A stretch of DNA of 20,814 nt from a virus. The position numbers were made by a program, and so were the translations under genes. Positions 2,907-20,814 of the stretch are shown here, one piece after another. The stretch is taken from positions 1 to 20,814 of IMG/VR virus record IMGVR_UViG_3300011116_000790. One strand, given 5' to 3'. The number at the start of each line of letters is the position of its first letter. Position 1 is the stretch's first letter. The notes below the pieces were generated by a model. The model was not told where the DNA came from, ran no database searches, and saw nothing but the letters and a program-made list of their open reading frames with translations.

Positions 2907-3092
2907 TTAGATTTCATAATCTGGAAACAAATATGTAAAACATTTTTTCAATTCATCATCCTCTAAATCAGAAATAGCCAAAGAAGGATCTTTCTTCTCC
3001 ATCAATTTAAAAACAAGAGCAACTTTTTCTTCGCCGAATATTCTTTTTGCTTCATCAACAGTTTTTGATTTAATTACGGTCATTTTAATCAT
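2907..3092 (-). CDS. Hypothetical protein, 61 aa
   Basis: The family is not recognised. It is a small acidic helical protein (D-E-A-K-R-I-F-G-E-E-K, then S-D-L-E-D-D-E-L-K-K-C) with no membrane segment. The first ATG (3090-3092) overlaps the smpB stop by 8 bases; a second ATG at 3081-3083 lies one base after that stop and gives a 58-residue protein, and either could be used by coupling. Its place directly after smpB and before the terminator makes it the last gene of the clpP-smpB transcript, so an accessory role there is possible but not shown. Confidence 0.65.
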   Translation of the reverse strand: MIKMTVIKSKTVDEAKRIFGEEKVALVFKLMEKKDPSLAISDLEDDELKKCFTYLFPDYEI

Positions 3093-8837: not shown

Positions 8838-9323
8838 TTAATGAAAAATTAGTACTCCTCCTTTGGATGCTATTTCAAATCCCAACATGAAGTCGTCATA
8901 AACTCGAGTATAATAACCTTCATAGGGCTCTTTGTTCTCTACACCTCTCACAAATTTCTCTCTATACTTGACGAAATCTTCATGAAGCTTTTTAGCCGAT
9001 GCTGGACCGAAATGACCCTCGCAGTCGGAGAAGTTGATTAGATTATAAAACTCCTTGCTCTTGAAGACTTGTGGTTTTGACCAAAGTTCTTTCGCTGGAA
9101 TACCGTGCATAATTTCACAGAGTAAATTCCTGAAATCATTGTATCCTGAATAACTTCCAGCCCTGAAATGGTGTGACTCACAGACGTGAGAGTCTGTGAA
9201 CATTCCCTCTTCTATATCTTGGGCCTGATCATTTTCAGGCATGCCTCTTCTAATAAAGACCCTAGCCTCGTCCTCGTCTTCTACCCTTTCAATTTTACTG
9301 TAAGCTGAAATGTCTAATCCCAT
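8838..9323 (-). CDS. MGLDI-family phage protein, 161 aa (copy 1)
   Basis: The protein begins M-G-L-D-I-S-A-Y, a start shared by a widespread family of phage hypothetical proteins. Further features are H-F-R-A-G-S-Y-S-G-Y-N-D-F-R (53-66), a Cys/His-containing stretch (S-H-V-C-E-S-H-H, 45-52), D-C-E-G-H-F-G-P (99-106), and a C-terminal strand (K-G-G-V-L-I-F-H). The conserved Cys, His and Asp could bind a metal, but no activity is known to me. A second, longer member lies at 17854-18642. A TAnnTTTG promoter-like element sits 23 bases before its ATG, so it may begin a transcript with the 79-residue gene. Confidence 0.8.
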   Translation of the reverse strand: MGLDISAYSKIERVEDEDEARVFIRRGMPENDQAQDIEEGMFTDSHVCESHHFRAGSYSGYNDFRNLLCEIMHGIPAKELWSKPQVFKSKEFYNLINFSDCEGHFGPASAKKLHEDFVKYREKFVRGVENKEPYEGYYTRVYDDFMLGFEIASKGGVLIFH

Positions 9324-9345
9324 AATTTTTAATTGTAAATTTCCT

Positions 9346-9353
9346 CAAATGTA
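9346..9353 (-). promoter_or_regulatory. Bacteroidota-type -7 element TACATTTG
   Basis: TACATTTG on the minus strand matches TAnnTTTG and lies 23 bases before the ATG at 9321-9323, in the 38-base gap after the SLOG gene. No TTG occurs at the expected -33 position, so only half of the consensus is present. Confidence 0.4.
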
Positions 9354-9361
9354 AAAAGGAG

Positions 9362-9718
9362 TTACGAGAGATTAGTGTTAATGACGTGAATCTTTAAACC
9401 TTTAGTCTGTGCTAGGTCTATCATATGTTTGGTCCCTTTAGATTCGCCGTCCCAAAAGGCTATCAAAGCATCGGAGTACTCTGCCATTTCTTTGTTTCTA
9501 ACATATCCTGCTGCTTTACCATGTTTATCCCAGTCCGCCGGGAATCTAGCTACACTATAGCCTTTTAAACTGGCGTAGTGCTCACCTAGCTTGTCAGCTC
9601 CCTTGGCAGTGCCACTAACAATCTCTATGTCAATTTGGTTTTCTAATATTTCCTCGCATTTAGAAAATAGTAAGGAAAAATCTGAAAATCCTCTGCTACC
9701 CGCAATAATTACTTTCAT
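9362..9718 (-). CDS. SLOG-domain protein (DUF2493/YspA-like), 118 aa
   Basis: The Rossmann-like SLOG fold is shown by G-S-R-G-F (7-11), S-G-T-A-K-G-A-D (35-42) with K-L-G-E-H-Y-A, the P-A-D-W-x-x-x-G-K-x-A-G-x-x-R-N-x-E-M block (60-78), and F-W-D-G-x-S-K-G-T (88-96). SLOG proteins bind nucleotides or nucleotide-derived ligands; small DUF2493 members are common in phages, with unproven roles. The single domain is complete, with no fused effector. Its ATG overlaps the stop of the upstream phosphoesterase gene (ATGA), so it is the last gene of a coupled run of four. Confidence 0.9.
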   Translation of the reverse strand: MKVIIAGSRGFSDFSLLFSKCEEILENQIDIEIVSGTAKGADKLGEHYASLKGYSVARFPADWDKHGKAAGYVRNKEMAEYSDALIAFWDGESKGTKHMIDLAQTKGLKIHVINTNLS

Positions 9719-10440
9719 TTCTTTGATTTTTCGTGATAATTAATGATGAGCCATTCTCCATCCTTTAATTCTACTAATGCAGTACAATTCTCACACCAAT
9801 CTCCAGAATTCATATAATCCTGGTTCATGGCCGGCTGGTGGATATGTCCGCACACTGCTACATCACATCCTTTTTGTTTAGCTAATCTTATAGCATTCTC
9901 CTCGAAGTCATTTATAAAGTTTGTGGCTTTCTTGATACCATTCTTAATGTCCTTTGATATTGAATAGTAGGGTAAGCCTTTCCAAGCTCTCCATCTATTA
10001 TACCAACGATTGATCCAAAGTGCAATATCATATCCAACACTTCCAATATAGGCAAGCCATTTGATTTTCGTAATAAAGACGTCTAACACGTCCCCGTGAA
10101 AAATGTAGTAACGAGTCCGTCCATATTGGTGGATCCAATCCTCTACAATCTTAATGTTCCCTAAATCAAATGGAAGAAAGTCTTTTAAGAATTCATCATG
10201 ATTACCCCTTACCCAAATAACTTCAGTATCTGTTTCTGATATTTTAAGAATCTTTCTAACAATCTTAGTGTCTTTTTTAGTCCATTTAGATCCTCTTTTA
10301 AGAGCCCATCCGTCTATTATATCACCATTCAGTACTAAAGTGTCTGTTTGGATATTCTCTAAGAAGTTAAGAATGTCATCTCTTCTAGCAGCCTTACTTC
10401 CTAAATGTAAGTCCGATATAATTACTGTTTTATATTTCAT
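9715..10440 (-). CDS. LpxH-like metallophosphoesterase (UDP-2,3-diacylglucosamine diphosphatase family)
   Basis: The calcineurin-like metal site is complete: D10 and H12 in S-D-L-H-L-G, D40 in N-G-D-I-I-D-G-W, N80-H81 in R-G-N-H-D-E, H115 in F-H-G-D, and H199/H201 in C-G-H-I-H-Q-P. The insertion between H115 and H199, rich in Trp and Tyr (W-I-N-R-W-Y-N-R-W-R-A-W), fits the LpxH-type membrane-associated lid. LpxH family enzymes cleave UDP-diacylglucosamine to lipid X in lipid A synthesis; Bacteroidota carry related enzymes. The adjacent GT2 gene overlaps it by four bases, suggesting they act together on an envelope or lipid-linked sugar. The substrate is not determined by sequence. Confidence 0.88.
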   Translation of the reverse strand: MKYKTVIISDLHLGSKAARRDDILNFLENIQTDTLVLNGDIIDGWALKRGSKWTKKDTKIVRKILKISETDTEVIWVRGNHDEFLKDFLPFDLGNIKIVEDWIHQYGRTRYYIFHGDVLDVFITKIKWLAYIGSVGYDIALWINRWYNRWRAWKGLPYYSISKDIKNGIKKATNFINDFEENAIRLAKQKGCDVAVCGHIHQPAMNQDYMNSGDWCENCTALVELKDGEWLIINYHEKSKK

Positions 10441-11138
10441 GTCCAGTAGCTATAATCTTGTTTATAAAATTCGTCATTATGTCTGTTAATCCAGCACTTT
10501 ATCATCAGCTTACACATGTACCAGAATCCTTTATTTCTAAATCTTCTGTCTGAGGTATAAGCATAAAAGTTAAATATTTTAAAGCTTTTTGGTTTCACCT
10601 TCATCGATAAATGATAATCTTCGGCAAACTTATCTTCTTCGTTAAATTTACCCAATTCTTTAAAGTGTTCTGTATTAAACAACATAAATCCACCAACAGC
10701 AAATGGTGTTCTGAATGATACGATCCATTGAACAAGATCGAAGACTTTATAGAAAAAAGCATATCTCAGATTCCAGGTAGTGATATTGCATGTGGATAAT
10801 TTAATATCATCGAGAATCATTTTTCCGACAAGATATTTCAATGGAACCTTAGAAATATCCATATCAGCATCTAAAAAAAGTACGTAAGGTGTTTTAACCT
10901 CGTAAAATCCATTATTACGAGCAACTGCCGGAAGACCACCTTCAACTATTTGAATATTTTCATCGTTCAGAAAATTGAATTTATCTAAGTATTGAAGGGT
11001 TTTATCAGTAGACGAATCAGCAATGATTATTTTACACTCGTCATGATATCCCAATATTTGGGTTAATGTTGCAGCTAACCCCAATCCTTCATTTTTACAA
11101 GGAATGACTATGGTTAAATTATTTTTCAAAAAACTCAT
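10437..11138 (-). CDS. Glycosyltransferase family 2
   Basis: A GT-A fold transferase that moves a sugar from a nucleotide donor. L-T-I-V-I-P-C-K-N-E-G (8-18) is the donor-binding first strand, I-I-I-A-D-S-S-T-D-K-T (37-47) the second, and F-L-D-A-D-M-D (88-94) holds the D-x-D metal motif. F-A-E-D-Y-H-L, near residue 180, provides the usual E-D catalytic-base region. At 233 residues it is a single catalytic domain; hydrophobic stretches near the C-terminus (G-F-W-Y-M-C-K-L-M-I-K-C-W-I) may associate with membrane. Coupled by ATGA overlaps to the gene before it and to the LpxH-like gene after it, it probably modifies a surface or lipid-linked glycan, or DNA if hypermodified bases are present. 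Confidence 0.92.
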   Translation of the reverse strand: MSFLKNNLTIVIPCKNEGLGLAATLTQILGYHDECKIIIADSSTDKTLQYLDKFNFLNDENIQIVEGGLPAVARNNGFYEVKTPYVLFLDADMDISKVPLKYLVGKMILDDIKLSTCNITTWNLRYAFFYKVFDLVQWIVSFRTPFAVGGFMLFNTEHFKELGKFNEEDKFAEDYHLSMKVKPKSFKIFNFYAYTSDRRFRNKGFWYMCKLMIKCWINRHNDEFYKQDYSYWT

Positions 11139-11329
11139 TTTATCATCTCCTTAAATATTCTTTTTATTTCCTTATCGAGATAATTCCAATCATCCAATGT
11201 GAAAGTTATTTGATCCTCTTTAGAGTCATTAATAGAAACTTCTATGTATCCCTCACATACTTTTACATCTAAGTAAGTACCTCCCTCATCTCGAAATGAT
11301 ATTTCCTCTATCTTTCTGGTTAGTGGCAT
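11135..11329 (-). CDS. Hypothetical protein, 64 aa
   Basis: The family is not recognised. A small acidic beta-rich protein (I-S-F-R-D-E-G-G-T-Y-L-D-V-K-V, then Y-I-E-V-S-I-N-D) ends in a helix (W-N-Y-L-D-K-E-I-K-R-I-F-K-E-M). The frame is open further upstream to 11440, but that part overlaps the capsid-like gene and reads unlike protein, so I take the ATG at 11327-11329 (M-P-L-T-R-K). That still leaves a 44-base overlap with the capsid-like gene. Its stop overlaps the glycosyltransferase ATG (ATGA). Confidence 0.6.
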   Translation of the reverse strand: MPLTRKIEEISFRDEGGTYLDVKVCEGYIEVSINDSKEDQITFTLDDWNYLDKEIKRIFKEMIK

Positions 11330-12230
11330 AGTCTTTCTTTTTAAATAACTTATTCCAAAGATGTGTGAAAACGTTGTGGACTTTGTCTGTGAATTCAAAA
11401 CCGAAATATTGTAGGTGCACGTTTTCTGTCGGATGAACAACCATTCTTTTTCTGAGAACAGTCAGATTGTAAGGCATTAGAGTTTTTTCGTCAACGATTT
11501 CAGTGTTCAGAATTTCTGGATCCATGTGAACATAAAAAATTGCTTCTGATGATTCCTGAGAATTTTTACCTAGAATGACCGACATGTCATCATATCTTAA
11601 ATTTGGATCAATTAAAACCTCAAGTGAAGTTCCAATTTGACCAACCCTATAAACAAATCCAGAAGCTTGTTCTAATTGTGGCTGATTTGGATCGTTGTAT
11701 ACGAATTGGGGTAGATCCATAATTCTTGTTGCCAACCCAGCTGAAACAATAACGTAATTAGCTGGACCAAGTCTAGAATCTTTAGCTATCATGTTGGAAT
11801 AAAACATCAGATATCTGATGATATCTGATTCCTCTTTTATTCTTTTTTTAGGAACAAAAGAAAACCAATCATCCATCAGGGTTTGGAATTTGCTGAATGT
11901 CATTTTGTAATGCTGTTCTCCAGCATATCTCATGATGTCCTTGATAAGTTTTTCGGTTTGCATTTCAGATTCATTTTCCAAAGTTGATTGTAACATTCCT
12001 TGAAAATCAAATTCAACCCCATGGAGATGTGATAAATCAGCGATTTGCTCTTTTGGGACTTTCGATTTAACCTGAAAGGTTTCTAATGTAAGTGCTTTTC
12101 TTTTAGTTGCTAATTTCAGTTGTTCAAATCCATCTTCATCCTTGCCATCTGATTCAGGAGTGAGGTAAAATATATCTACTACTCCTGCTTCAGCCTTACG
12201 GCTTAAGATTCTTTTTTTAATTTCTTTCAT
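11286..12230 (-). CDS. T4 gp23-like capsid protein paralogue, 314 aa
   Basis: Several blocks match the T4 gp23/gp24 fold pattern: A-T-K-R-K-A-L-T-L-E (41-50) leading to P-K-E-Q-I-A-D-L-S-H-L-H-G-V-E (59-73), then E-S-E-M-Q-T-E-K-L-I (87-96), corresponding to the gp23 helix region T-L-E-M-A-Q-D-L-K-A-M-H-G-I-D; G-P-A-N-Y-V-I-V-S (155-163); V-G-Q-I-G-T-S-L-E-V-L-I-D-P (196-209); and A-I-F-Y-V-H-M-D-P (230-238) with a C-terminal L-R-K-R-M-V-V. At 314 residues it is far shorter than gp23 (521) or gp24 (427) and lacks a typical prohead N-terminus. It could be a minor or vertex capsid protein. It is embedded among nucleotide and glycan genes rather than head genes. The ATG overlaps the upstream gene by 14 bases. 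Confidence 0.65.
   Translation of the reverse strand: MKEIKKRILSRKAEAGVVDIFYLTPESDGKDEDGFEQLKLATKRKALTLETFQVKSKVPKEQIADLSHLHGVEFDFQGMLQSTLENESEMQTEKLIKDIMRYAGEQHYKMTFSKFQTLMDDWFSFVPKKRIKEESDIIRYLMFYSNMIAKDSRLGPANYVIVSAGLATRIMDLPQFVYNDPNQPQLEQASGFVYRVGQIGTSLEVLIDPNLRYDDMSVILGKNSQESSEAIFYVHMDPEILNTEIVDEKTLMPYNLTVLRKRMVVHPTENVHLQYFGFEFTDKVHNVFTHLWNKLFKKKDYATNQKDRGNIISR
11806..11829. repeat. 14-bp palindrome with 10-bp tandem copy in the capsid-like gene
   Basis: ATCAGATATCTGAT (11806-11819) is a perfect palindrome, and its last ten bases, GATATCTGAT, are repeated directly at 11820-11829. It lies inside coding sequence (around residues 134-142), so it may be chance; a DNA-binding site is possible. 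Confidence 0.7.
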
Positions 12231-12729
12231 TTTCGTATTGATTGATTTTAGTAATTAAAGCTCCAACTGCAGAATCAAAATCCTCGAAGAACATAGTGCC
12301 TGTTCGAGTGCAGATAATTTCAACATTTCCCTTTCTCCAGAATCCATTAGGACAACAAACTACCATATCTTTGTTACCTGCGTATCTTCCTAACTCCAGA
12401 AGTGAGATTGGACTCTGAGTCTCTGGTGAGAAGTACATAAAGATGATGTCGCATTGATCTAGCTTGTTAAGTTCCCAATTGACTTGGTGATTGAATTGTA
12501 GATTGGATTGTTCTTGTGTCCAAGATGAATCCCAATCGTCTCTGCGGGGATTATAAACGGTAAGGTCCTTACCCAAAGCTTCTAACTTTGACGTAAGGAC
12601 CTTTTGCCAATCTTCGGCTTTACCCATTTCGATTGAACCAGCCGCAAAAAGGCTGATTTTACCAAGCTCTATTTGTGTGTCTGAATTAGGCTTTATTACT
12701 TGAATTTTTGTTATTTCCGGTTGTGACAT
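12217..12729 (-). CDS. Nucleoside 2-deoxyribosyltransferase-like protein
   Basis: The motifs are those of the short phage/bacterial nucleoside 2-deoxyribosyltransferase-like family: F-A-A-G-S-I-E-M-G-K-A-E-D-W-Q (28-42), Y-N-P-R-R-D-D-W-D-S-S-W (59-70), H-Q-V-N-W-E-L (81-87), and S-P-I-S-L-L-E-L-G (106-114), where E112 would be the nucleophile that attacks the N-glycosidic bond. These enzymes exchange or hydrolyse bases on deoxyribonucleosides or nucleotides. The N-terminal 23 residues are outside the fold. The ATG (12727-12729) gives a 44-base overlap with the SPFH gene. A strong inverted repeat lies in codons 43-56. The exact substrate, salvage or removal of a base, is unknown. Confidence 0.87.
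   Translation of the reverse strand: MSQPEITKIQVIKPNSDTQIELGKISLFAAGSIEMGKAEDWQKVLTSKLEALGKDLTVYNPRRDDWDSSWTQEQSNLQFNHQVNWELNKLDQCDIIFMYFSPETQSPISLLELGRYAGNKDMVVCCPNGFWRKGNVEIICTRTGTMFFEDFDSAVGALITKINQYENERN
12562..12603 (-). repeat. Long stem-loop inside the deoxyribosyltransferase-like gene
   Basis: AAGGTCCTTAC (12562-12572) and GTAAGGACCTT (12593-12603) are exact reverse complements. Inside them CAAAG (12574-12578) pairs with CTTTG (12586-12590) around a 7-base loop, giving 16 pairs interrupted by a small internal loop. It lies wholly in coding sequence. Confidence 0.85.
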
Positions 12730-14575
12730 CTCTTGAAGTATTTACTTCTTTTTTAGTGTCCTTATCCTGGATTTGTTTCAATAATTCTAGACCTAAAAGT
12801 CCGTTGATAGATCCGTTACCTCCGTCATTTCCTGAGATAAGAATTTCAGGAATGATCTTAATACCGTTCTTACCGATTTCCTCTGTGATCTTGAATTTAG
12901 CGAAGTTGTCATTGCCCATCGCATCAACTTGAAGTTTGTAAGCTTCGGCAGTGGATTTACCGATTGCTTCAATTTTAGATGCTTCTGCCTTACCAGTTAA
13001 TTCAATCTGTGCTGCATCGGCTTCTGCCATTAGCTTCTTAGCTTTCGCATCAGCAGCAGCTTTCAATTCAATTGCTTTTGCCTGACCTTCTGATTTCTTT
13101 ACAGCAGCCTCTGCTTCACGTTGTGATATTTCTACTGATTGCTGTGCAGATACCATTTGTCCTTGCATATCGGCTAAAGCCTTGGCTGATTCTAAAGTTT
13201 TACGTTGATCCTGCGCCTTTCTTTGGGTTTCGAAAGTAACCTCTTCCTCTTGAGCGATCTTACGATCAGTTAAGGTTTTCATTAAAGATTCTGGTGGTGT
13301 AATGTCACCGATAAGCGTATCAACAGCATGTACATTATACTCGTCTAACACTGACGATATAGCTGTTTTAGCAGCATTCTGTCTTGCCTGACGGGTAGAT
13401 AAGAATGAAATAACATCTGAGTCTTGAGCAGAGTTACGGAAATAGTTACCGATTGTTGGCTCGAGAACTTGTGATACAAGGTTTTGCATTGAACCGAATC
13501 GAGCAATTACTTTAGGAGCTTCTGGAGCAGGAATATGAATGATTTGAGATACGTCCAAGTTGAATGGGAAACCATCTTTTGAACGAACAGTGATTGTACT
13601 TAAACCTTTATCTAAGTTGTGCGATTCTGTTCGAGCATTTGCCCAGTTAAGAACCAAGTTAGTGGTTGGTACGGTTTCAATCTTATGAGTATAAGGATTG
13701 ATTGCATATTTTCCTGGATCAAGCGGAGTGATACAAACCCCTTTCTGACCTTTCTTAACGATGTTACCGTGTTTGAATCCAGCACCCGTCATATCTTCAC
13801 CTTCATCACCAACATATGAGATGATAACACCAACATGGCCGATTGGAATCTGAGTCATAGCTACTTTTTCAACTTCTACTGCCCAAGGATTAAGTGAGTA
13901 ATTACCTGCTTGAATTACCTGAGTTTGTAAACCTCTTTGTCCACCGTGAGATAAGAACTTATCGAAATCTTGATAGTTATTATGGTCAGGTGTAACTTTA
14001 CCTGCAATGTTACCTGCATCTAACGGGACGCCATCAAGTGCTGTAATAACCCCTACCTGACCGTCTTCAATATATGTGATATCAGCAACTGATAAGTCGA
14101 ATAAGAAAGGGTTGATACGGTAAACACCATTGTTTAGATAACCGACTTGTTTACCTCTTTGACCTCCGTTGATTAAAAAAGCTCTTGTATCTTGAAAGTT
14201 ATCTGATTCTACATGTCTGGCAAGAATAGCCCCAGTTGGTAATTGACCACCATCTTTTGCTGAAAGTAAACCTATCTTACCTTTAGGTATCATAGTCAAA
14301 TCTGCTTGGTCGATAGAGAATTGCCAAACCCAATAGCCCCAATATAAACCAGGAGCAAGTGTATCTGCTTGATAACCAGGTTCACCATTTAGGGCAATGA
14401 TTTTTCCATCGGGTAACGATTTATTGGCACCTACTAAAACGAATTTTTTAGTCACTAGACCAATTTTGTTTTCTGGTATGATTACCATACCGAAAAAGAA
14501 TCTAAGTATGAATTTATAGAAGATGATTGCTAATAGTGGAATAAGTATCCACCAAAATTGTAATATTGTTTGCAT
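12686..14575 (-). CDS. SPFH/flotillin-like membrane protein, 629 aa
   Basis: An N-terminal membrane helix (about 7-30) is followed by four tandem repeats of roughly 60-75 residues (about 33-92, 96-160, 168-235, 243-300). Each begins I-P-x-G-x-V/I-G-x-I/L and ends G-x-Y-x-I/L-N-P; two carry G-G-Q-R-G. The SPFH/Band 7 core spans about 303-432 (T-V-R-S-K-D-G-F-P-F-N-L-D-V at 329-341), then comes an Ala/Glu/Lys-rich coiled coil (about 433-552) typical of flotillins, and a Gly/Asn-rich end. SPFH proteins form ring or cage scaffolds on membranes. The repeats and length fit flotillin-like bacterial proteins, so host capture is likely. It overlaps the downstream gene by 44 bases and is preceded by a small membrane-protein gene. 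Confidence 0.9.
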   Translation of the reverse strand: MQTILQFWWILIPLLAIIFYKFILRFFFGMVIIPENKIGLVTKKFVLVGANKSLPDGKIIALNGEPGYQADTLAPGLYWGYWVWQFSIDQADLTMIPKGKIGLLSAKDGGQLPTGAILARHVESDNFQDTRAFLINGGQRGKQVGYLNNGVYRINPFLFDLSVADITYIEDGQVGVITALDGVPLDAGNIAGKVTPDHNNYQDFDKFLSHGGQRGLQTQVIQAGNYSLNPWAVEVEKVAMTQIPIGHVGVIISYVGDEGEDMTGAGFKHGNIVKKGQKGVCITPLDPGKYAINPYTHKIETVPTTNLVLNWANARTESHNLDKGLSTITVRSKDGFPFNLDVSQIIHIPAPEAPKVIARFGSMQNLVSQVLEPTIGNYFRNSAQDSDVISFLSTRQARQNAAKTAISSVLDEYNVHAVDTLIGDITPPESLMKTLTDRKIAQEEEVTFETQRKAQDQRKTLESAKALADMQGQMVSAQQSVEISQREAEAAVKKSEGQAKAIELKAAADAKAKKLMAEADAAQIELTGKAEASKIEAIGKSTAEAYKLQVDAMGNDNFAKFKITEEIGKNGIKIIPEILISGNDGGNGSINGLLGLELLKQIQDKDTKKEVNTSRDVTTGNNKNSSNKA

Positions 14576-14597
14576 TTTTGTTTTTTTGTTTTTTAAA

Positions 14598-14858
14598 TTA
14601 TTGAATTGAATTTTTCTTAAGATTGATGTTCAAAGAATCCACTATGATGATTGCTCTGCCCCAGTTAATATCTGGTGACAGAGCTATAATGTCATCTGGT
14701 CCGTTGTCAATATTAACCCTGATTTTAGGAACTCCTTGACTGTACTCACCAGAGAGTTGATATTCGATAACTCTCTTCGGTGCTGTAGCGTAGTAAATAC
14801 CTAATCCCAAAAGGGTCGAGATGACTAGCATCAAAAAATATTGCCAAACTTTTTCCAT
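14598..14858 (-). CDS. Small single-pass membrane protein, 86 aa
   Basis: The family is not recognised. One N-terminal hydrophobic helix (about 6-24, F-L-M-L-V-I-S-T-L-L-G-L-G-I-Y-Y) acts as anchor or uncleaved signal; about 60 residues that are probably periplasmic follow, beta-rich with P-K-I-R-V-N-I-D-N-G-P-D-D. No lipobox Cys is seen. The ATG overlaps the stop of the NAMPT gene by one base (TAATG), indicating coupled translation, and the SPFH gene follows 22 bases later. A partnership with the SPFH protein is plausible from position alone. Confidence 0.75.
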   Translation of the reverse strand: MEKVWQYFLMLVISTLLGLGIYYATAPKRVIEYQLSGEYSQGVPKIRVNIDNGPDDIIALSPDINWGRAIIIVDSLNINLKKNSIQ

Positions 14859-16414
14859 TAGATTATTGAATTAATGCGGTTACGAATTTCTGTTAATGTT
14901 GCCTGATTATGGAAGTGTCCATCTTCGTAAATCGTTTGAAGAATTCCTCCAGCTTCTTCTTCTGGAGTACATTGGGTCTTAACCTCGTACTTCGTGTAGG
15001 TCTTGCCGGTTTCTTCAGATGTTGCTGTGATTTCATCCACTCTAATAAGACCTTTCAAAGATTTTTTAGTACCATCATCGGTTACTGGATCTTTGTAGAT
15101 GTCGTAACAAACTTTTTTGTAGACAGGAGTTCCTTCAGGTGTTATCCAATCAATTTCTTCTACCTCAAACCAAGCTCCCTTAGCTGCAAACCCTAATGTG
15201 TCTCGTGTGTTCATTTGGTATGTGAAAGAACCTACACCCAATACAATGTTAGTTGCAGCAAATCCTTTTGCTTCCAATCTTTCGTAGATTTGGATTTGAC
15301 GATCCAATGTGATTGAATCTCCGTAGATGGCTCCGATGTGCGGGTCAAGAACTTTATAACCTTGTTCGTTAACTGTACCTCCGAAAATATCCCAAAGAAG
15401 TTCAATAACGCCTTTGTAAGATGGATGGTTCGCTTGTTCTGCCGAAAACATTTCTGGACGAGTGTTTAATCCGCAGATAATATCTACTGGATCACCTGAA
15501 TCAGGTCTAATTACCAATTTACCATCTCTAGCCATAATAGCTTCTTTATTAGCTGGTAAATATTCAGTGATTAATTTCCAAAGGTCGAACGTGTCGCTAA
15601 CAATACTCAAAATTCCTTTAGGGAAATCTGTTAGCCAATCAGCGATCATTTGTTGTTCACCAACGGTAAAGATCTTAGTGGTTGATACAGAGTGCTCTGA
15701 TGCGTTCACCGAGTATATCGCAACCTGATCTTTAGGCTCATCGTAGAAGTAACGTGCTCCAGGGATACAGATAATTGTATCCGATCCTAAGAATGATGAT
15801 GCGTGTCCTAATCCACTTGATAACATATCCCAAGGACTTAGACCTCGTGCTGAGAAGTCGTGACAAAGGAAAGGAATCAGGAAAGCGTTAGATGGATCTG
15901 TTTTCATAACCCATTTCACAACGTTTCTCTTGTATTGAAGAGCGATGGTTGCAGAGGTTGAAGGCTTCCATGCTAATGAAGAAATGATGGTTTCCAAATA
16001 AAGTGTTAACCAAGCAAATCCATCCACGGTGTTAATAAAGGTCATATGAGGCACGTTAGGCTGTGTCTCGATTCCTTCCGGTAAAGCTTTTACCCTGATT
16101 GGTAGATAACCCAAATCATACAAAGCTTCGAAGTGAGAGGCATCGTAATTCATACCCAAATACATAGACATATCCTTTCCGAATTGCATAGCTTCTGCTT
16201 TTGGAATGCTGAAGAAGTTTTCTGCGAATTCGTCATGGAGCCATCTCATGGCCAATTGCTGGCCAAATGATAAAATTCTTTGCACTCCTTTAGGTGCGTG
16301 TTTGATGCTGCGGGGAATCCAAGTTCCGTAAAGACGGGTGGTTCCTTTAGCCAACATCCTCTTATGGCCAATCTTGTAACCATCGGTGTAAAATAAAGTT
16401 GAAGGTTTGAACAT
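14858..16414 (-). CDS. nadV: Nicotinamide phosphoribosyltransferase-like enzyme (NAMPT/NadV; candidate Namat of NARP1)
   Basis: The enzyme joins nicotinamide to a pyrophosphorylated ribose. With PRPP the product is NMN; in the NARP1 pathway NAMPT-like Namat uses ADP-ribose-pyrophosphate and makes NAD+ directly. Visible sites (numbered from the ATG at 16412-16414) are F-Y-T-D-G-Y-K-I-G-H (8-17, with the substrate-binding D11), H-D-F-S-A-R-G (185-191), the catalytic His in S-E-H-S-V-S-T (H241), R-P-D-S-G-D-P (303-309), G-D-S-I-T (365-369) and G-S-F-T-Y-Q-x-N-T-R-D (395-405). The 518 residues are slightly longer than human NAMPT (491) and look complete. The frame opens earlier at a TTG (16447), but the ATG fits the family start and a TAnnTTTG element 31 bases upstream. 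Sequence alone does not separate NMN-forming from NAD+-forming members. Confidence 0.95.
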   Translation of the reverse strand: MFKPSTLFYTDGYKIGHKRMLAKGTTRLYGTWIPRSIKHAPKGVQRILSFGQQLAMRWLHDEFAENFFSIPKAEAMQFGKDMSMYLGMNYDASHFEALYDLGYLPIRVKALPEGIETQPNVPHMTFINTVDGFAWLTLYLETIISSLAWKPSTSATIALQYKRNVVKWVMKTDPSNAFLIPFLCHDFSARGLSPWDMLSSGLGHASSFLGSDTIICIPGARYFYDEPKDQVAIYSVNASEHSVSTTKIFTVGEQQMIADWLTDFPKGILSIVSDTFDLWKLITEYLPANKEAIMARDGKLVIRPDSGDPVDIICGLNTRPEMFSAEQANHPSYKGVIELLWDIFGGTVNEQGYKVLDPHIGAIYGDSITLDRQIQIYERLEAKGFAATNIVLGVGSFTYQMNTRDTLGFAAKGAWFEVEEIDWITPEGTPVYKKVCYDIYKDPVTDDGTKKSLKGLIRVDEITATSEETGKTYTKYEVKTQCTPEEEAGGILQTIYEDGHFHNQATLTEIRNRINSII

Positions 16415-16444
16415 ACTATTAATATTTTTTATAATATTGAACTG

Positions 16445-16452
16445 CAAAGATA
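16445..16452 (-). promoter_or_regulatory. Bacteroidota-type -7 element TATCTTTG before the NAMPT gene
   Basis: TATCTTTG on the minus strand matches TAnnTTTG and lies 31 bases before the ATG at 16414, in the 63-base gap after the HAD gene. No TTG is seen at the -33 spacing. It would give NAMPT and the downstream genes expression independent of the genes before them. Confidence 0.4.
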
Positions 16453-16477
16453 TTTGAATTTTCCGGGAGATTCCTGT

Positions 16478-16921
16478 TTAGAAATCAAAAAAAACTGTTC
16501 CTCTGCTTCCTCTGATCCTGTACATTGCAAACTCCAATATATTTAAAGATTCGTTTAGCCCTGCTCTGTCGTCAATGAAAATATTGGCGTAAATCTTTTT
16601 GTCCTTTCCGTATGGTAGATCGATTGGAGTCTCGTTAATTGAATCAATTTCAAGACCGATTGAAGCACAGTAGCTTTTAATCTCTTCGTATCGAAGTGGA
16701 TTACATGCAGTAAAGATAACGATGTAAGCCCCAGTAGCCTTAGCCTGCTTAAGAACCTCAATGGTTCTTTTTGGATCATAGTCTCTTAGCTTCCAAGGTG
16801 AAATGGTATCATCGTAATCACAGGCGATAATAATTTTACCGTGCTGTCTCCATTCGTTCTCAAGTCTTTCTAAATAAGGAACTGACTCTGGATTTTTTTC
16901 GAAATATTCTTTCATTCTCAT
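16478..16921 (-). CDS. HAD-family phosphatase, 147 aa
   Basis: The HAD signature is A-C-D-Y-D-D-T-I (33-40; nucleophile D35 and acid/base D37), motif II is I-F-T-A-C-N (69-74; T71), and motif IV is F-I-D-D-R-A (115-120; D117, D118). Y-G-K-D-K-K (104-109) supplies the motif III Lys. These are small phage HAD proteins, usually thought to dephosphorylate nucleotides or nucleic-acid 3'/5' phosphates; the substrate is unknown here. The cap domain is minimal. The ATG overlaps the stop of the 59-residue gene (ATGA). Placed before NAMPT and after the DUF1937 gene, it fits nucleotide metabolism. A promoter-like element separates it from NAMPT. Confidence 0.85.
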   Translation of the reverse strand: MRMKEYFEKNPESVPYLERLENEWRQHGKIIIACDYDDTISPWKLRDYDPKRTIEVLKQAKATGAYIVIFTACNPLRYEEIKSYCASIGLEIDSINETPIDLPYGKDKKIYANIFIDDRAGLNESLNILEFAMYRIRGSRGTVFFDF

Positions 16922-17097
16922 AATTCTTTTATTATTGTAATGTTTATAGGATAATATGTTGACTTCCCATTGATTTTGAAATAGTAATAACCCCTTTCCG
17001 AGGAATGAAAGCTTTCAGCTTCAATCTCTTCCTGCATCCATTGTTGACTTGTGCCTGATTGCATCAGTATTCTGATTAGAAATTTTTTAGTCTCCAT
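16918..17097 (-). CDS. Small hypothetical protein, 59 aa
   Basis: This short frame fills the gap between two coupled genes. It starts at the ATG at 17095-17097, inside the last codons of the DUF1937 gene (11-base overlap), and ends with a TGA that overlaps the HAD ATG (ATGA). The protein has an N-terminal basic helix (K-K-F-L-I-R-I-L-M-Q), a Q-Q-W-M-Q-E-E-I segment and a Tyr-rich strand (R-G-Y-Y-Y-F-K-I-N-G-K-S-T-Y-Y). The overlaps at both ends, and codon use like its neighbours, support a real gene. The family is not recognised. Confidence 0.72.
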   Translation of the reverse strand: METKKFLIRILMQSGTSQQWMQEEIEAESFHSSERGYYYFKINGKSTYYPINITIIKEL

Positions 17098-17599
17098 CTT
17101 TTTTTCTCATTAGATTATTATAAAGTACATCTGTCTGTAATCCAGTTACAGCTTCTTTATCTTGTGAATCAGATTCCACCCAGTTATCTTCGTGCCAAGA
17201 TTGTTCCCACCCTTGTGTTTTTAGAAATTCTCTTTTAATCTCAGCCGGAACGTTTTCATAAGGATCAAATTCAATCCATCTAACTGGAATGTTTTTTTCT
17301 AATGCGTACTCTATCTCGGCAGCCAATCCTTTTGAATTTTCCCAGCCTTCCATTTTATAAACTAGAAGCTCGTCGGATTTTTCCAAAAAGGATAAGCAGA
17401 AAGATTTCCAGAATTCCCAATCTCCGGGCATATTTTGAAATCCTAATAAAGTGTGTCCGTAAGTTATCGGAGAAAAAGCCACATGACCTTTTGAACAAAG
17501 TCTGGCCGCTAATCTTGAAACCTTTTTATAATTCTCTTCGACCACTTCCGGGTCGGTATGAGAATATGGTGAGCCGACGTAAATTAATCTTTTTTCCAT
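17087..17599 (-). CDS. DUF1937 protein (deoxyribosyltransferase-like fold), 170 aa
   Basis: From the ATG at 17597-17599 the protein begins M-E-K-R-L-I-Y-V-G-S-P-Y-S-H, the usual DUF1937 start. Further family marks are H-V-A-F-S-P-I-T-Y-G-H (39-49), P-G-D-W-E-F-W (58-64), Y-K-M-E-G-W-E-N-S-K-G (81-91), and the catalytic-type Glu in A-A-E-I-E (E95). The fold is that of nucleoside 2-deoxyribosyltransferases and related N-glycosidases, so it may act on nucleotides, but no reaction is established. The open frame extends 19 codons upstream into the previous gene; I reject that start because the family begins at M-E-K and this ATG lies one base after the upstream stop. The C-terminal tail of about 50 residues is polar and poorly conserved. 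Confidence 0.87.
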   Translation of the reverse strand: MEKRLIYVGSPYSHTDPEVVEENYKKVSRLAARLCSKGHVAFSPITYGHTLLGFQNMPGDWEFWKSFCLSFLEKSDELLVYKMEGWENSKGLAAEIEYALEKNIPVRWIEFDPYENVPAEIKREFLKTQGWEQSWHEDNWVESDSQDKEAVTGLQTDVLYNNLMRKKDGD

Positions 17600-17600
17600 A

Positions 17601-17849
17601 TTAGTATTTAAAAGATAGCCAAGACCCTTCTCTTTGTTCAGATTCCCATTTGACATCAGACCATCCGGCCGAGATATACCTAGTTTTTAAAATCTCGAAG
17701 TGTTTGTATGACATTCCAGAGGGAACATCTAAAGAAAGACTGCTTCCCTTTGAAATGCTTCTCGAACTCAAAGCCTTATCAATTCTATCTTCGAAATCCT
17801 TAACCTCTTTAAGGAAAGCTTCATTTAGTTGCTGTGGTGATATTGCCAT
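17601..17849 (-). CDS. Hypothetical protein, 82 aa
   Basis: The family is not recognised. The N-terminal half is a charged helix (P-Q-Q-L-N-E-A-F-L-K-E-V-K-D-F-E-D-R-I-D-K-A-L), a Ser-rich linker follows (S-S-R-S-I-S-K-G-S-S), and the end is a small alpha-beta segment (F-E-I-L-K-T-R-Y, then W-S-D-V-K-W-E-S-E). The arrangement recalls small phage proteins with a C-terminal nucleic-acid-binding unit, which is only a guess. It starts 4 bases after the MGLDI-family stop and ends one base before the DUF1937 start. Confidence 0.72.
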   Translation of the reverse strand: MAISPQQLNEAFLKEVKDFEDRIDKALSSRSISKGSSLSLDVPSGMSYKHFEILKTRYISAGWSDVKWESEQREGSWLSFKY

Positions 17850-17853
17850 GTTT

Positions 17854-18642
17854 TTATCCGCTCCAATGTAAATAATATTTCTCTTTGTCCTCTTTAGCTA
17901 GAACGAATTTGCACGTTTCTCTTACAATCTCCAAAGACTGAAGATACCAACTGTTGTCAGATTCTGTTACGACAAAAGTGCAAGGACGATCGTTGAAGAT
18001 GTAACGATTCTGTCCAGGAATCATGGCTAAAACTTTTTGAGGACTGTGGTATGAAAATTCTCCTTTCGCACTGCTGTAATTGTAATCACATTTTCCTTCG
18101 TGCTTATCAATCTCTTCTTGGAATATCTTCAGTGCTTCCGCTTCAGATCCCGGAACCTCACCTCCAAATTTGTCAGGATATACCGCTCTGACCCTGTAAT
18201 TTCCCTTCTCTTTAAACCTTAAGATGAGTGATTCAACATTTTCTAAAGCTTTCTCCCAATCAGGTTTAACATGATATTCATTATCATTTACATTAAAGAC
18301 ATCATTTAATGTTGGAAGATCCATGTTTTTTAGAATTCTCTGAATTCCTGATTCATTATAAGAACTTCTGAAGTACCCTATTTTGAAATAGTGATCTGGA
18401 TAATCTGGATGATCCATTTCAACTTTTTCGTACATGCTTCGATCTGACCCGTCTTCTTCAAGTCCAATTGATAGTGCATACTGGTTGATCTTGTCTCTAA
18501 TTGCATCTTTCTCTTCCTCGGATAGAGAATCATAATCGGCTACCTCTTCCCAGGCCTTATCATAGAATTCTGAGTGGAGATCCTCTTTCCTTCGAGTCTC
18601 CTCGAAGTTTTCGTATCTGTAAAGATAAATGTCTAATCCCAT
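17854..18642 (-). CDS. MGLDI-family phage protein, 262 aa (copy 2)
   Basis: It begins M-G-L-D-I-Y-L-Y, as does the 161-residue protein at 8838-9323, and shares the Y-F-K-I-G-Y-F-R-S-S-Y-N block (about 104-115), equivalent to H-F-R-A-G-S-Y-S-G-Y-N in the shorter copy. It adds an acidic, helical N-terminal insertion (S-L-S-E-E-E-K-D-A-I) and a C-terminal part of about 100 residues with no match in copy 1 (F-V-V-T-E-S-D-N-S-W-Y-L-Q-S-L-E-I-V, then K-Y-Y-L-H-W). No catalytic motif is recognised. It lies directly after the NADAR gene, within the ADP-ribose cluster, with one base between them. Confidence 0.78.
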   Translation of the reverse strand: MGLDIYLYRYENFEETRRKEDLHSEFYDKAWEEVADYDSLSEEEKDAIRDKINQYALSIGLEEDGSDRSMYEKVEMDHPDYPDHYFKIGYFRSSYNESGIQRILKNMDLPTLNDVFNVNDNEYHVKPDWEKALENVESLILRFKEKGNYRVRAVYPDKFGGEVPGSEAEALKIFQEEIDKHEGKCDYNYSSAKGEFSYHSPQKVLAMIPGQNRYIFNDRPCTFVVTESDNSWYLQSLEIVRETCKFVLAKEDKEKYYLHWSG

Positions 18643-18643
18643 A

Positions 18644-19123
18644 TTATGAGTTTTTTATCTGTTGTTTAACTAAAGTAATTGACCATCCTAAAAGATTTAG
18701 TCCTTTCCAATTTGCTGGATCGTCTACTCCCGGATCTTGCTCCGACATTCCAATTCCCCAAATTTTATCCAAAGGTGAAGCTTCAACGAGAAGTCTGTCA
18801 CCAGTAGAGAGAAGCTCTTCCATCAAATCTGGATTTTGTGAGAACTTAGCAAAGTTTCCTCTATAAACTATGCCTAAGCAAACTGAATCCCATTTATCCT
18901 TATCGAATCCTTTGATTTGTCTTCCTAGTCCTTTCTGATCTTTTGGATTTGAGGTCTGTAGAACTTTTTCGGCAATCTCAGAATCACCAAAGGTTAAAGC
19001 CTTTTGGTGCATCATGTACTGCTCACAGCAGTTATATTGAACACCGTCTATTGTCATTGGGGCTTTGTGCCATTGTGAGTATATTCCATTCCAGAAAAAT
19101 ACGTGTTTGTTAGTTGATATCAT
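18644..19123 (-). CDS. NADAR-domain protein (YbiA-like ADP-ribosyl glycohydrolase)
   Basis: The domain spans the whole protein: F-F-W-N-G-I-Y-S-Q-W-H (9-19), Y-N-C-C-E-Q-Y-M-M-H-Q-K-A (30-42), F-G-D, K-G-L-G-R (64-68), A-K-F-S-Q-N-P (92-98) and the signature V-E-A-S-P-L-D-K-I-W-G-I-G (113-125). Characterised NADAR proteins remove ADP-ribose from guanine bases, reversing DarT-type DNA modification, and related members process NAD-derived or riboflavin-pathway intermediates. In a phage this would undo toxin-driven ADP-ribosylation and release ADP-ribose, which the PRPP-synthetase-like gene of this cluster could recycle if it is an Adps. The 159-residue length is normal. It is separated by 6 bases from the gene before it. 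Confidence 0.9.
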   Translation of the reverse strand: MISTNKHVFFWNGIYSQWHKAPMTIDGVQYNCCEQYMMHQKALTFGDSEIAEKVLQTSNPKDQKGLGRQIKGFDKDKWDSVCLGIVYRGNFAKFSQNPDLMEELLSTGDRLLVEASPLDKIWGIGMSEQDPGVDDPANWKGLNLLGWSITLVKQQIKNS

Positions 19124-19129
19124 ATTTTA

Positions 19130-19411
19130 TTATTGTTCTTTTGAAATTTTTAACATCTCTTCTAATCCTAGCTCCTGAATCGATATCACCAAATCTGCTA
19201 TTCTGATATCCATATCAAGTTCTTTACAGCAGACTAAAGCAAACTCTTCGCTTATTGTAAATCCAGAATCAACCAAATCAACAGCAAGATCGAATCCTTC
19301 CACAGTAATAACAGGCCCACCCTCTAAAAATCCACCTTCTCTGAGTTTGTTGCAGTAGTAGATGAAAACTATTGCACCGTTTCTATTAATTTCTTCTTTC
19401 CAGTCTATCAT
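19130..19411 (-). CDS. Hypothetical protein, 93 aa
   Basis: The family is not recognised. It is an acidic alpha-beta protein: W-K-E-E-I-N-R-N-G-A-I-V-F-I-Y-Y-C (4-20), a Gly-rich turn (E-G-G-F-L-E-G-G-P), then two similar acidic helices containing F-D-L-A-V-D-L-V-D-S and I-R-I-A-D-L-V-I-S. Three Cys residues have no obvious metal pattern. The ATG overlaps the macrodomain stop (ATGA), and the NADAR gene starts 6 bases later. Its place between two ADP-ribose-processing genes makes it a candidate accessory factor. Confidence 0.72.
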   Translation of the reverse strand: MIDWKEEINRNGAIVFIYYCNKLREGGFLEGGPVITVEGFDLAVDLVDSGFTISEEFALVCCKELDMDIRIADLVISIQELGLEEMLKISKEQ

Positions 19412-19938
19412 GATTTCTTGTATATTACGACCGTGACATCACAGTCTCTAAGTTCCTGTTGAATGATGGCTTTGATTCTGTTCCAATTTCCTCCTGCCAA
19501 GCCTGAACCTATGGCCGGTAGACCTATTCTTTTACCCCTGAATGTGTGATTCATTTTTCTCAGACAAAGAGTCAAAGCTTCGTAATCCAAAGGTCTCGCT
19601 ACACCATCGGAGTGATTTGCTCCGTAGTTGTATTGGCTGTATGAGTTCACCACATACATCTTATGAAGTATCTCATCGCCTTCATCCGGATACCTCTCGT
19701 ACTTCTGATCCCAGCTAGAAAAGAACAAAAGCTCGTAATCAATTGTGCCTAATTTATTAATGTCACCTTTATATTCCTCGCTCTCCATTTTAAAGATATC
19801 ACATCCAAAAGCTTTAGCCATCTGTGGTGCTATTCCAGCTCCCATTGTGCAGTGACAGTTACATCCGTGTGTGATGACGTCGAATTCGAATTGATGAGCT
19901 ATCTGAATTAAATCTCCGTGGATTTCTTTATAAGACAT
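19408..19938 (-). CDS. Macrodomain protein (Appr-1''-p-processing/ADP-ribose hydrolase type)
   Basis: The macrodomain ADP-ribose pocket is visible: G-D-L (8-10), D20 with V-I-T-H-G-C-N-C (21-28), the Gly-rich loop M-G-A-G-I-A (32-37), and the second loop P-A-I-G-S-G-L-A-G-G-N-W (141-152). Family members bind ADP-ribose and hydrolyse ADP-ribose-1''-phosphate, O-acetyl-ADP-ribose or ADP-ribosyl groups on protein or DNA (as DarG does for thymidine). The G-C-N-C-x-x-x-M-G-A-G-I-A version is common in phage and Poa1-type proteins. At 176 residues it is a single complete domain. The start lies one base after the stop of the PRPP-synthetase-like gene, and the next gene overlaps its stop, so the three are translationally linked. 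Confidence 0.92.
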   Translation of the reverse strand: MSYKEIHGDLIQIAHQFEFDVITHGCNCHCTMGAGIAPQMAKAFGCDIFKMESEEYKGDINKLGTIDYELLFFSSWDQKYERYPDEGDEILHKMYVVNSYSQYNYGANHSDGVARPLDYEALTLCLRKMNHTFRGKRIGLPAIGSGLAGGNWNRIKAIIQQELRDCDVTVVIYKKS

Positions 19939-19939
19939 A

Positions 19940-20719
19940 CTAAAATACGTTAAGTTGTTTTAAGTTGATTGGTTTCATGCTTTTAGATGTTCCGACACTA
20001 CCTTCAGGAAGATCCTTAATTGAATTTGTGCAGTATATTCCATCGAAGTGCTCTCCAAGTTCTTCGAATCCTGCACTGAAGATACCATGAGTAACAATTA
20101 GAAATATTTTACCATGTTGATCCGGGTGAACTGCTGAACTTAAACTTCTGGTAATTTTGATGGCTTTAGCAATCTCAATGAATGTGCGTCCACCGTCACA
20201 GATGTCATCGATGATAAAAAGATCCTTGTCAGCATCATGAACTGAAAGAGGAACTGAAGTGTGTGTGATTTGTCCACTCACAGGATCACGATGTTTGGCT
20301 GCAATAACAATTTCATGTTTTAGACCAAATTTTTCTGAAATATGATAGACCTTTTTCAAAGCACCAGCATCAGGAGAAACCAATCTAACATTTGTGAAAT
20401 CATAATAAATATCTAGATCATCGAAATAATCATTAAATGCGAAGTCAACAACTTCCGAGTTGTCGATTTTTTTGAAGTGATCTATGCATGCCTCAAGAAC
20501 ATCAGAATGTGGATCCACGATTTCAACCTGACTGAATTTTTGAAGATTGATGATAGGTGCAATAACATTCTTGATGTAGTTGAAACCTCCATCTGAAAAC
20601 TTCCTGTCTGATCTTCCGCCAATACAATATGGAATGTAAAGATCAATATTCTCAACACCAAGTTCTCTTAGTGCGTGGGTTGCTCCAATGATTAATTCCA
20701 AATCCTTGAAGCTATTCAA
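19940..20719 (-). CDS. prs: PRPP-synthetase-like enzyme (candidate Adps of NARP1), C-terminal part after an in-frame stop
   Basis: Family marks include I-P-Y-C-I-G-G-R-S-D-R-K-F (29-41, equivalent to I-P-Y-x-x-Y-A-R-Q-D-R), V-D-P-H-S-D (83-88), V-S-P-D-A-G-A-L-K-K, K-H-R-D and the PRPP-loop motif D-D-I-C-D-G-G-R-T (about 191-199). PRPP synthetases move pyrophosphate from ATP to ribose 5-phosphate; the related NARP1 enzyme Adps does so to ADP-ribose. The usable start here is a TTG (20717-20719), but the same frame upstream reads R-V-K-I-K-S-R-L into it, which belongs to the family fold, and is cut off by TAA at 20750-20752. Beyond that stop the frame again carries family sequence. A protein begun at TTG would lack part of the N-terminal ATP-binding half, so activity is doubtful unless the stop is bypassed or is an error. 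Confidence 0.85.
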   Translation of the reverse strand: MNSFKDLELIIGATHALRELGVENIDLYIPYCIGGRSDRKFSDGGFNYIKNVIAPIINLQKFSQVEIVDPHSDVLEACIDHFKKIDNSEVVDFAFNDYFDDLDIYYDFTNVRLVSPDAGALKKVYHISEKFGLKHEIVIAAKHRDPVSGQITHTSVPLSVHDADKDLFIIDDICDGGRTFIEIAKAIKITRSLSSAVHPDQHGKIFLIVTHGIFSAGFEELGEHFDGIYCTNSIKDLPEGSVGTSKSMKPINLKQLNVF

Positions 20720-20749
20720 TCTTGATTTAATTTTAACTCTTTTGATTGT

Positions 20750-20814
20750 TTAAAAGTCCTGATAGCCGATTGCTGGGCTTTCCAAAATTTGGATTGATTG
20801 TTGTCCATCTGGAA
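20750..20814 (-). pseudogene. prs: N-terminal fragment of the PRPP-synthetase-like gene, ending at in-frame TAA, partial
   Basis: In the frame of the downstream enzyme, the last 21 codons of the window read P-D-G-Q-Q-S-I-Q-I-L at their start, matching the F-x-D-G-E/Q-x-x-V-x-I strand that opens the ATP-binding half of PRPP synthetases, and then end at TAA (20750-20752). The spacing from P-D-G to the downstream N-S-F-K-D-L-E block, about 33 residues including the stop codon, is plausible for phage members. Both parts are in the same frame, so a single substitution (for example AAA to TAA) explains the break, with no need for a frameshift. The 5' end is outside the window. Confidence 0.6.

Follow-up and report, generated by a model that had tools for sequence, protein, structure and literature searches.

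The IMG/VR virus record IMGVR_UViG_3300011116_000790 is a 20.8-kb fragment (20,814 nt; this whole stretch is called the window below) that carries a Prs-like and a NAMPT-like gene on its minus strand. Adps and Namat proteins of these two types constitute NARP1, a phage pathway that rebuilds NAD+ from ADP-ribose once an antiphage defence of the bacterium has depleted it, and whose founding description is reportedly that of Osterman in 2024. Read 5' to 3' on the minus strand, the order is Prs-like gene, macrodomain gene, a 93-amino-acid (aa) open reading frame (ORF), NADAR gene, 262-aa ORF, 82-aa ORF, DUF1937 gene, 59-aa ORF, HAD gene and NAMPT-like gene (Table 1). The original prediction had named the Prs-like, macrodomain, NADAR and NAMPT-like genes, with HAD and DUF1937 genes among them; our ORF, Pfam and PHROGs matches place all six where it had put them, on one strand. 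From the Prs-like ORF through the NAMPT-like gene, adjacent genes overlap or are separated by at most ~65 bases. Such near-touching genes are spaced as in an operon.

The NARP1 loci of Bas63, ICP1 and SpbL1 resemble the window in encoding an Adps-type and a Namat-type protein on one strand. In Bas63 and ICP1 the pair is adjacent, whereas in the window the two genes are ~3.5 kb apart and the macrodomain, NADAR, DUF1937, HAD and small genes lie between them.

The Prs-like and NAMPT-like pair

The NAMPT-like protein was aligned to PDB 9w5x, and the letters agree at all 20 SpbL1 Namat residue numbers of PMC12774641. Among the NAD+-contacting residues of the solved SpbL1 Namat, 17 of 20 are identical in the window protein. 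The three differences are R40 to K, A362 to S and Y396 to M. The clamp helix (SCH) reads GSFTYQMNTRD, with an aromatic residue at position 3 and Met at position 7, and Met at this position is common in related ORFs. In the accessible text of PMC12774641, the Namat clamp loop (SCL) pattern has Arg, Lys or Tyr as third residue and, after Lys or Tyr, a stacking residue as the fourth. The window loop, PRSIKH, has Lys at the key position and then His, in agreement with this pattern. The corresponding motifs are GSYTYQYMTRD and PRSDKW in Bas63, and GAQTYQRNTRD and PRSNEQ in H. ducreyi NadV, where PRSNEQ departs from the loop pattern. The clamp motif is present in 205 of 220 NAMPT-like ORFs longer than 350 aa from fetched loci that also have a Prs-like ORF (not dereplicated), and it was not found in the NAMPT-type proteins checked from KVP40, 44RR2, GAP32 and D485.

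The window Prs-like ORF scores 88.8 bits with the ICP1 synthetase, 74.0 with Bas63 Adps and 27.4 with E. coli Prs. A full-length relative (L005) gives 95.3, 89.6 and 32.2 bits, respectively. With two putative Adps proteins, the B. subtilis plasmid synthetase and the A5W synthetase, the window ORF scores 49.9 and 26.2 bits. A K.R[DN]..[TS]G.I loop is common to the window and the five other proteins aligned, shortened in Lbo-JY46; by eye, E. coli Prs is without it. Judged by these alignments, the predicted protein resembles the tested Adps enzymes more closely than it does cellular Prs. Taken together, the two proteins very probably belong to NARP1.

Several observations weigh against this assignment. 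At the clamp's second adenine-stacking position, an aromatic residue in Namat (Y396), the window has Met, and the NAMPT-like protein scores above the cut-off of the NCBIfam equivalog "nicotinate phosphoribosyltransferase". H. ducreyi NadV sits within the Namat-like part of the NAMPT tree, so that clade alone cannot separate Namat from Nampt. The A5W synthetase, whose gene adjoins a Namat-like gene, scores no higher than E. coli Prs. The Prs-like gene is incomplete, its 5' end being cut off by the fragment edge, and an in-frame TAA at 20750-20752 (minus strand), ~60 bases from the fragment end, splits the FPDGQ strand from the remainder. This N-terminal strand lies outside the 259-aa ORF, at the extreme end of the fragment. 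The window copy is therefore without the intact frame of an Adps, possibly through an assembly error. The original prediction had assigned the pair to NARP1; residues and kinship bear this out, and it is qualified by the one clamp residue and by the broken and cut Prs-like frame.

The stop could also mean that the window copy is decaying, with Adps inactivated and NAD+ no longer rebuilt, which would be compatible with a NARP1 function in the rest of the family. A stop that parts the FPDGQ strand from the downstream ORF agrees with decay, since the frame of the aligned relatives is open at this position, with the FPDGQ N-terminus in the same frame. The other ORFs of the cassette are open, and the stop is near the edge of a sequence assembled from a metagenome, a place where errors often arise. 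We consider decay unlikely.

The family names of the matches suggest another route, in which the Prs-like enzyme makes phosphoribosyl pyrophosphate (PRPP), the NAMPT-like enzyme makes nicotinamide mononucleotide (NMN), and the last step to NAD+ falls to an enzyme that is NadR-like or supplied by the host. A NadR-kinase-like AAA_28 gene at 7255-7836 fits such a route, as does the formation of NMN by Namat in vitro (available text of PMC12774641). Three findings argue against it: the clamp residues are mostly Namat-like, a Pfam scan of 30 window ORFs found no full NMN adenylyltransferase, and the (cut) Prs-like protein falls below the cut-off of all 10 ribose-phosphate diphosphokinase models that it matches. 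This route is very improbable.

Two simpler arguments on the NAMPT-like protein were also considered. The motif and a long starred branch in the tree led us to reject a plain T4/KVP40-type Nampt, though the tree alone is not decisive. The overall PDB score was dropped as proof of Namat because the letters of 9ke8 match H. ducreyi NadV by eye, and its score (336.7 bits) nearly equals that of 9w5w (365.9). In one related locus (L032:1873-4679) the NAMPT-like gene occupies two ORFs ~1 kb apart, possibly through an intron or an inserted gene.

Association of the inserted genes with the pair

Five IMG/VR scans were carried out with one family seed each, taking the best 80 loci per seed, nearest first (31 for NAMPT). 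The scans favour near relatives because the best 80 matches were returned. Each seed set was dereplicated at 90% seed identity. The family hidden Markov models (HMMs) had the proteins of the window itself as their starting point, and distant relatives may therefore be undercounted; all-against-all clustering, which ranks the interval genes without these HMMs, puts the macrodomain, HAD, NADAR and PF15891-type families first among interval ORFs. Bas63 is a row of alignment A4 used for the scans, and its profile score was not counted as evidence; neither was absence from the VIA lists.

Among the macrodomain-seeded loci (n=59), Prs was found in 42, NAMPT in 42 and NADAR in 18, and every Prs gene is on the same strand, upstream and within 3 kb. 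The NADAR-seeded loci (n=60) gave NAMPT in 32, macrodomain in 26 and Prs in 25. With HAD as seed (n=48), NAMPT and Prs were each present in 34 loci, macrodomain in 4 and NADAR in 3. The Prs-seeded loci (n=60) had, among the matches listed, NAMPT in 55, macrodomain in 23, HAD in 13 and NADAR in 12; the NAMPT-seeded loci (n=22) had Prs in 20, HAD in 15, SPFH/Band 7 in 8, macrodomain in 6 and NADAR in 4. In a ClpP-seeded control (80 loci, 21 after dereplication) none of the 21 had Prs, NAMPT, macrodomain, NADAR or HAD, and Prs and NAMPT accompany bacterial macrodomain homologues in 2 of 75 cases. These counts, taken seed by seed, together with the ClpP control, rule out chance or a neighbourhood artefact. 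The survey for co-occurrence that the original prediction proposed thus finds the four gene families strongly linked in the seeded loci, and the linkage of macrodomain, HAD and NADAR to the Prs-NAMPT pair is real.

The position of the inserted genes was compared in the Prs- and NAMPT-seeded loci only (111 loci, 97 with both genes, 68 after dereplication). Prs is upstream of NAMPT in 62 of these 68 cassettes. The Prs-NAMPT interval makes up 9% of locus length, and the flanks hold ~ten times as much DNA. By a binomial test that assumes independent loci, which related phages are not, the interval is enriched in macrodomain (20 inside, 2 outside; p 2e-19), HAD (15 and 7; p 2e-11), NADAR (10 and 3; p 8e-9), DUF1937 (5 and 1; p 3e-5) and PF15891-type genes (10 and 19; p 1e-4). 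SPFH/Band 7 genes were found inside the interval in none and outside it in 10 of the 68 cassettes, and recur downstream of Namat. Under a looser rule of place, macrodomain or NADAR is inside in 23 of the 68 cassettes and both are inside in 9. Pooling all seeds gives 111 cassettes, of which 23 have a macrodomain as well as a NADAR gene in the interval. A comparison of macrodomain with HAD in 111 cassettes (together in 11, alone in 42 and 32, respectively, neither in 26) is seed-biased and was left unused. No ORF of the searched loci sets bore two of nine family profiles separately, as a gene fusion would.

The association is also seen in cultured phages. Adps, macrodomain and Namat genes are consecutive in Vibrio phage Kronos, whose Namat motif is GSFTYQYVTRD and whose Adps loop is KIRDVLTGDI. 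The 3-kb Adps-macrodomain-Namat stretch of Kronos is matched in 49 Vibrio records, 48 of them over at least 80% (Kronos and RefSeq duplicates counted). The order in Pseudomonas phage EM is Adps, Namat and then a gene annotated Macro_Poa1p_like; the EM Adps homologue (L530:3132-3989) is annotated as a baseplate protein. A search of seven named records found Adps in five and the macrodomain family in two; these two are Bas63 and Cellulophaga phi17:2, which had no match to Adps in the case of phi17:2.

The 39 rows of a macrodomain tree comprise named and bacterial sequences and a random sample of the macrodomain-seeded loci, 14 out of 62 with linkage to Prs or NAMPT and 10 out of 18 without. On the starred branches of this tree the linkage must have changed at least 5 times, and Kronos falls apart from the window group. 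These changes indicate that macrodomain and NARP1 were joined more than once, or often parted.

The association has clear exceptions. In 45 of the 68 cassettes neither macrodomain nor NADAR is inside the interval, so that the inserted genes are common but not universal. No Adps or macrodomain match was found in PTm1, whose NAMPT is 59.5% identical, and Lbo-JY46 (NAMPT 66.6% identical) has an Adps match and no macrodomain match. A search of KVP40 gave no Adps match. SRILMA, PWH3a-P1 and Cellulophaga phi17:2 have no annotated Prs or NAMPT near their NADAR or macrodomain genes. Macrodomain matches occur in 2,193 phage records, many of them probably unlinked, and in JohannJBalmer the macrodomain and Prs genes are ~80 kb apart in the record.

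These exceptions lead to the question of whether the window holds a plain NARP1 in an anti-defence or accessory island, where macrodomain, NADAR, HAD and deoxyribosyltransferase-like genes are co-inherited for purposes of their own and have no metabolic link to the pair. In Bas63 a macrodomain gene of the same family is ~8 kb from NARP1, and the NADAR of SRILMA and the macrodomain of Cellulophaga come from records in which Adps had no match. The PF15891 family is found more often outside than inside the interval, and some intervals contain Sir2-looking, Thg1-looking and other ORFs (by eye). On the other hand, macrodomain, HAD and NADAR are found far more often in the short interval than in the ten-fold longer flanks, their nearest copies share its strand, and the compact Adps-macrodomain-Namat trio recurs in an unrelated phage group. 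A mere accessory island is thus rather doubtful, although we give it more weight than decay of the window copy. The Sir2-looking ORF belongs to the Adps-Namat interval of 5 cassettes (e.g. L153:13408-14160).

Possible roles of the inserted enzymes

The AlphaFold2 model of the window macrodomain has a predicted local distance difference test (pLDDT) score of 91.8. Its best structural match is BT1257 (Z 19.3, root-mean-square deviation (rmsd) 3.0, 149 aligned), followed by TARG1 (Z 18.0, rmsd 2.1, 135 aligned), DarG (Z 17.3, rmsd 2.4, 143 aligned), Poa1p (Z 16.6, rmsd 2.6, 148 aligned) and 5e3b of Streptomyces coelicolor, which we take to be SCO6735 (Z 16.6, rmsd 2.7, 138 aligned). TARG1- and DarG-like enzymes release ADP-ribose from protein or thymidine, and Poa1p releases it from ADP-ribose 1''-phosphate. 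The modelled fold is shared with the Poa1p phosphatase, whose score is equalled or exceeded by those of TARG1, DarG and BT1257. A profile alignment with TARG1, which is weak, puts the Lys-Lys-Arg stretch of TARG1, placed by what we take to be the residue number of its catalytic Lys, on S110-D111-G112 of the window protein; 3 of 7 aligned rows carry Lys at that column.

Residues E34 and K41 of the window NADAR correspond to the catalytic Glu and Lys of this family (E88 and K95 of E. coli C7; E43 and K50 of 8BAU). They have the spacing of 7 of the known pair and are invariant across the 5 aligned rows. According to the accessible text of PMC11125620, NADARs including that of T4 act on guanosine-ADP-ribose in vitro, and NADARs from outside DarT1 loci did not efficiently rescue cells. 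The best curated model for the window NADAR is a riboflavin-intermediate N-glycosidase, which would be at odds with a role in ADP-ribose release.

The HAD protein keeps the motifs of its family (DxDxT, Thr/Ser, Lys and DD), with D35, D37, T39, T71 and K109 invariant and D117 and D118 near-invariant. Its model (pLDDT 91.0) matches BT0820 (Z 10.9, rmsd 4.5, 110 aligned) and, more weakly, the T4 Pnkp phosphatase (Z 8.0, rmsd 3.3, 88 aligned). There is also a weak match to a phage D-arabinose 1,5-diphosphate phosphatase (Z 6.6, rmsd 8.3, 98 aligned).

Combining these features with the linkage, we propose that the locus is probably an expanded NARP1 operon whose inserted enzymes supply free ADP-ribose to Adps and Namat. 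As established in homologues, Adps would convert free ADP-ribose and ATP to ADP-ribose pyrophosphate, and Namat would join the latter with nicotinamide to form NAD+. The macrodomain and NADAR proteins, and probably the HAD and deoxyribosyltransferase-like proteins, may turn ADP-ribose conjugates into free ADP-ribose. Candidate conjugates that Adps would be unable to use include ADP-ribosylated bases, ADP-ribose 1''-phosphate, and amino-acid or cyclic ADP-ribose signals. The inserted enzymes would yield free ADP-ribose, the substrate that Adps requires, or products that could be turned into it. One operon would then disarm the damage or signal and also refill NAD+. By analogy with known systems, recycling of the released ADP-ribose to NAD+, as the original prediction supposed, is plausible.

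Known systems offer partial parallels. The ICP1 pair circumvents the NADase system Nezha, with higher NAD+, according to the available text of PMC11559045. A further likeness is RyDEP, an enzyme gene inserted in the NARP1 operon of mycobacteriophage DyoEdafos. In the text available from this 2026 preprint (PMC13232231), RyDEP converts 2' and 3' cyclic ADP-ribose to ADP-ribose, and Adps and Namat convert its product from the 2' form to NAD+ in vitro; the inserted enzyme thus makes ADP-ribose for NARP1. RyDEP has a ryanodine-receptor-type domain, whereas the window inserts are of the macrodomain, NADAR and HAD families, and no word starting with 'macro' occurs in the accessible main text of the preprint. 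The DarTG and DarT-NADAR antitoxins also use macrodomain and NADAR folds that remove ADP-ribose. DarG profile matches to the window macrodomain are weak (34.8 bits, with a cut-off of 250; PADLOC 35.2), and a Pfam scan of 30 window ORFs gave no DarT match.

The original prediction held that the expanded arrangement may be undescribed. In the part of Iyer 2022 (PMC9503650) available to us, phage NADAR genes adjoin NadV and NadM, and macrodomain and NADAR co-occur; a NADAR beside a NAMPT-like gene was thus already known. That work predates NARP1, and the order Adps-macrodomain-NADAR-HAD-Namat is not described in its available text. We found no paper in the open-access literature that joins macrodomain or NADAR to NARP1, so this part of the claim stands. 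New here is a NARP1 variant with inserted macrodomain, NADAR and HAD genes, for which the comparative basis is strong and the mechanism a proposed one.

The repeated linkage in several unrelated phage groups suggests that phages turn immunity products back into fuel. A wider and more tentative reading, which we regard as possible and somewhat less probable than not, is that modular islands for the salvage of ADP-ribose have been assembled around NARP1 time and again by phages, with lineage-specific hydrolases (macrodomain, NADAR, HAD, deoxyribosyltransferase-like and sometimes Sir2-like) feeding Adps and Namat. The ADP-ribose might come from more than one product of immunity, among them signals as well as conjugates with DNA or small molecules that would be new as phage targets, and each insert might reveal an NAD+-derived weapon of the host. 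If the proposal of an expanded operon is correct, the role of NARP1 would go beyond NAD+ repair by two enzymes, with the pair at the centre of an operon for drawing ADP-ribose out of the products of host immunity, and the inserted enzymes would be candidates for unknown counter-defence activities. The three-gene version in the cultured phage Kronos and its close relatives makes the proposal directly testable.

Neighbouring genes and other features

Table 1. Genes of the cassette and its downstream neighbours in the window
Feature	Position	Strand	Basis
Adps/Prs-like gene (candidate ADP-ribose pyrophosphate synthetase)	19940..20814	-	downstream ORF 19940-20719 (259 aa); PF00156 3e-9, phrog_619 7e-51
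Macrodomain, TARG1/DarG/Poa1p class	19408..19938	-	PF01661 5.6e-5; phrog_335 3e-46; AlphaFold2 model
93-aa ORF	19130..19411	-	without Pfam or PHROGs match
NADAR-family gene	18644..19123	-	PF08719 1.4e-50; TIGR02464 151 bits
262-aa ORF	17854..18642	-	family between both enzymes in 6 of 111 cassettes
82-aa ORF	17601..17849	-	family within interval of 6 cassettes
DUF1937 protein, nucleoside deoxyribosyltransferase-like	17087..17599 (ORF opens 17656; likely start 17599)	-	PF09152 1.5e-17, phrog_355
59-aa ORF	16918..17097	-	ORF list; Pfam and PHROGs scans
HAD-type phosphatase, BT0820-like	16478..16921	-	phrog_1238 1.5e-20; Pfam weak (0.05)
Namat/NAMPT-like gene (candidate nicotinamide ADP-ribose transferase)	14858..16447, likely ATG start 16414	-	PF04095 1.9e-32; phrog_448 5e-153
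SPFH/Band 7 (flotillin-like) protein	12686..14575	-	PF01145
Nuc_deoxyri_tr2 protein	12217..12729	-	PF15891

Downstream of the NAMPT-like gene follow an 86-aa ORF, the SPFH/Band 7 protein and a nucleoside deoxyribosyltransferase-like protein. Promoter-like matches in 9000-20814 number 40 and are not above shuffles (mean 36.6, standard deviation 6.5). Terminator-like matches in the same region are above shuffles (14; mean 6.8, standard deviation 2.8); 9 of the 14 are on the plus strand, and the sole minus-strand match within 14858-20814 falls inside the DUF1937 gene. A search for RNA elements found a tRNA and nothing else.

The AAA_28 kinase-like gene at 7255-7836 is on the plus strand, opposite to the cassette; its similarity to NadR is weak, and it may be a further NAD-salvage gene. 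A YAcAr-family SLOG protein (PF10686), of another family tied to NAD+/ADP-ribose signals, is encoded at 9362-9718. A Gp23-like capsid protein of 314 aa (11286-12230) adjoins the accessory genes and spans positions 126-354 of the Pfam model. An SmpB gene (PF01668 1e-48; 3085-3507) adjoins that of a ClpP-like protease (3513-4196), and a ribosome-rescue protein seems unusual in a phage. On the other side of the ClpP-like gene is an I-TevI/NUMOD3-type homing endonuclease gene (4210-4905).

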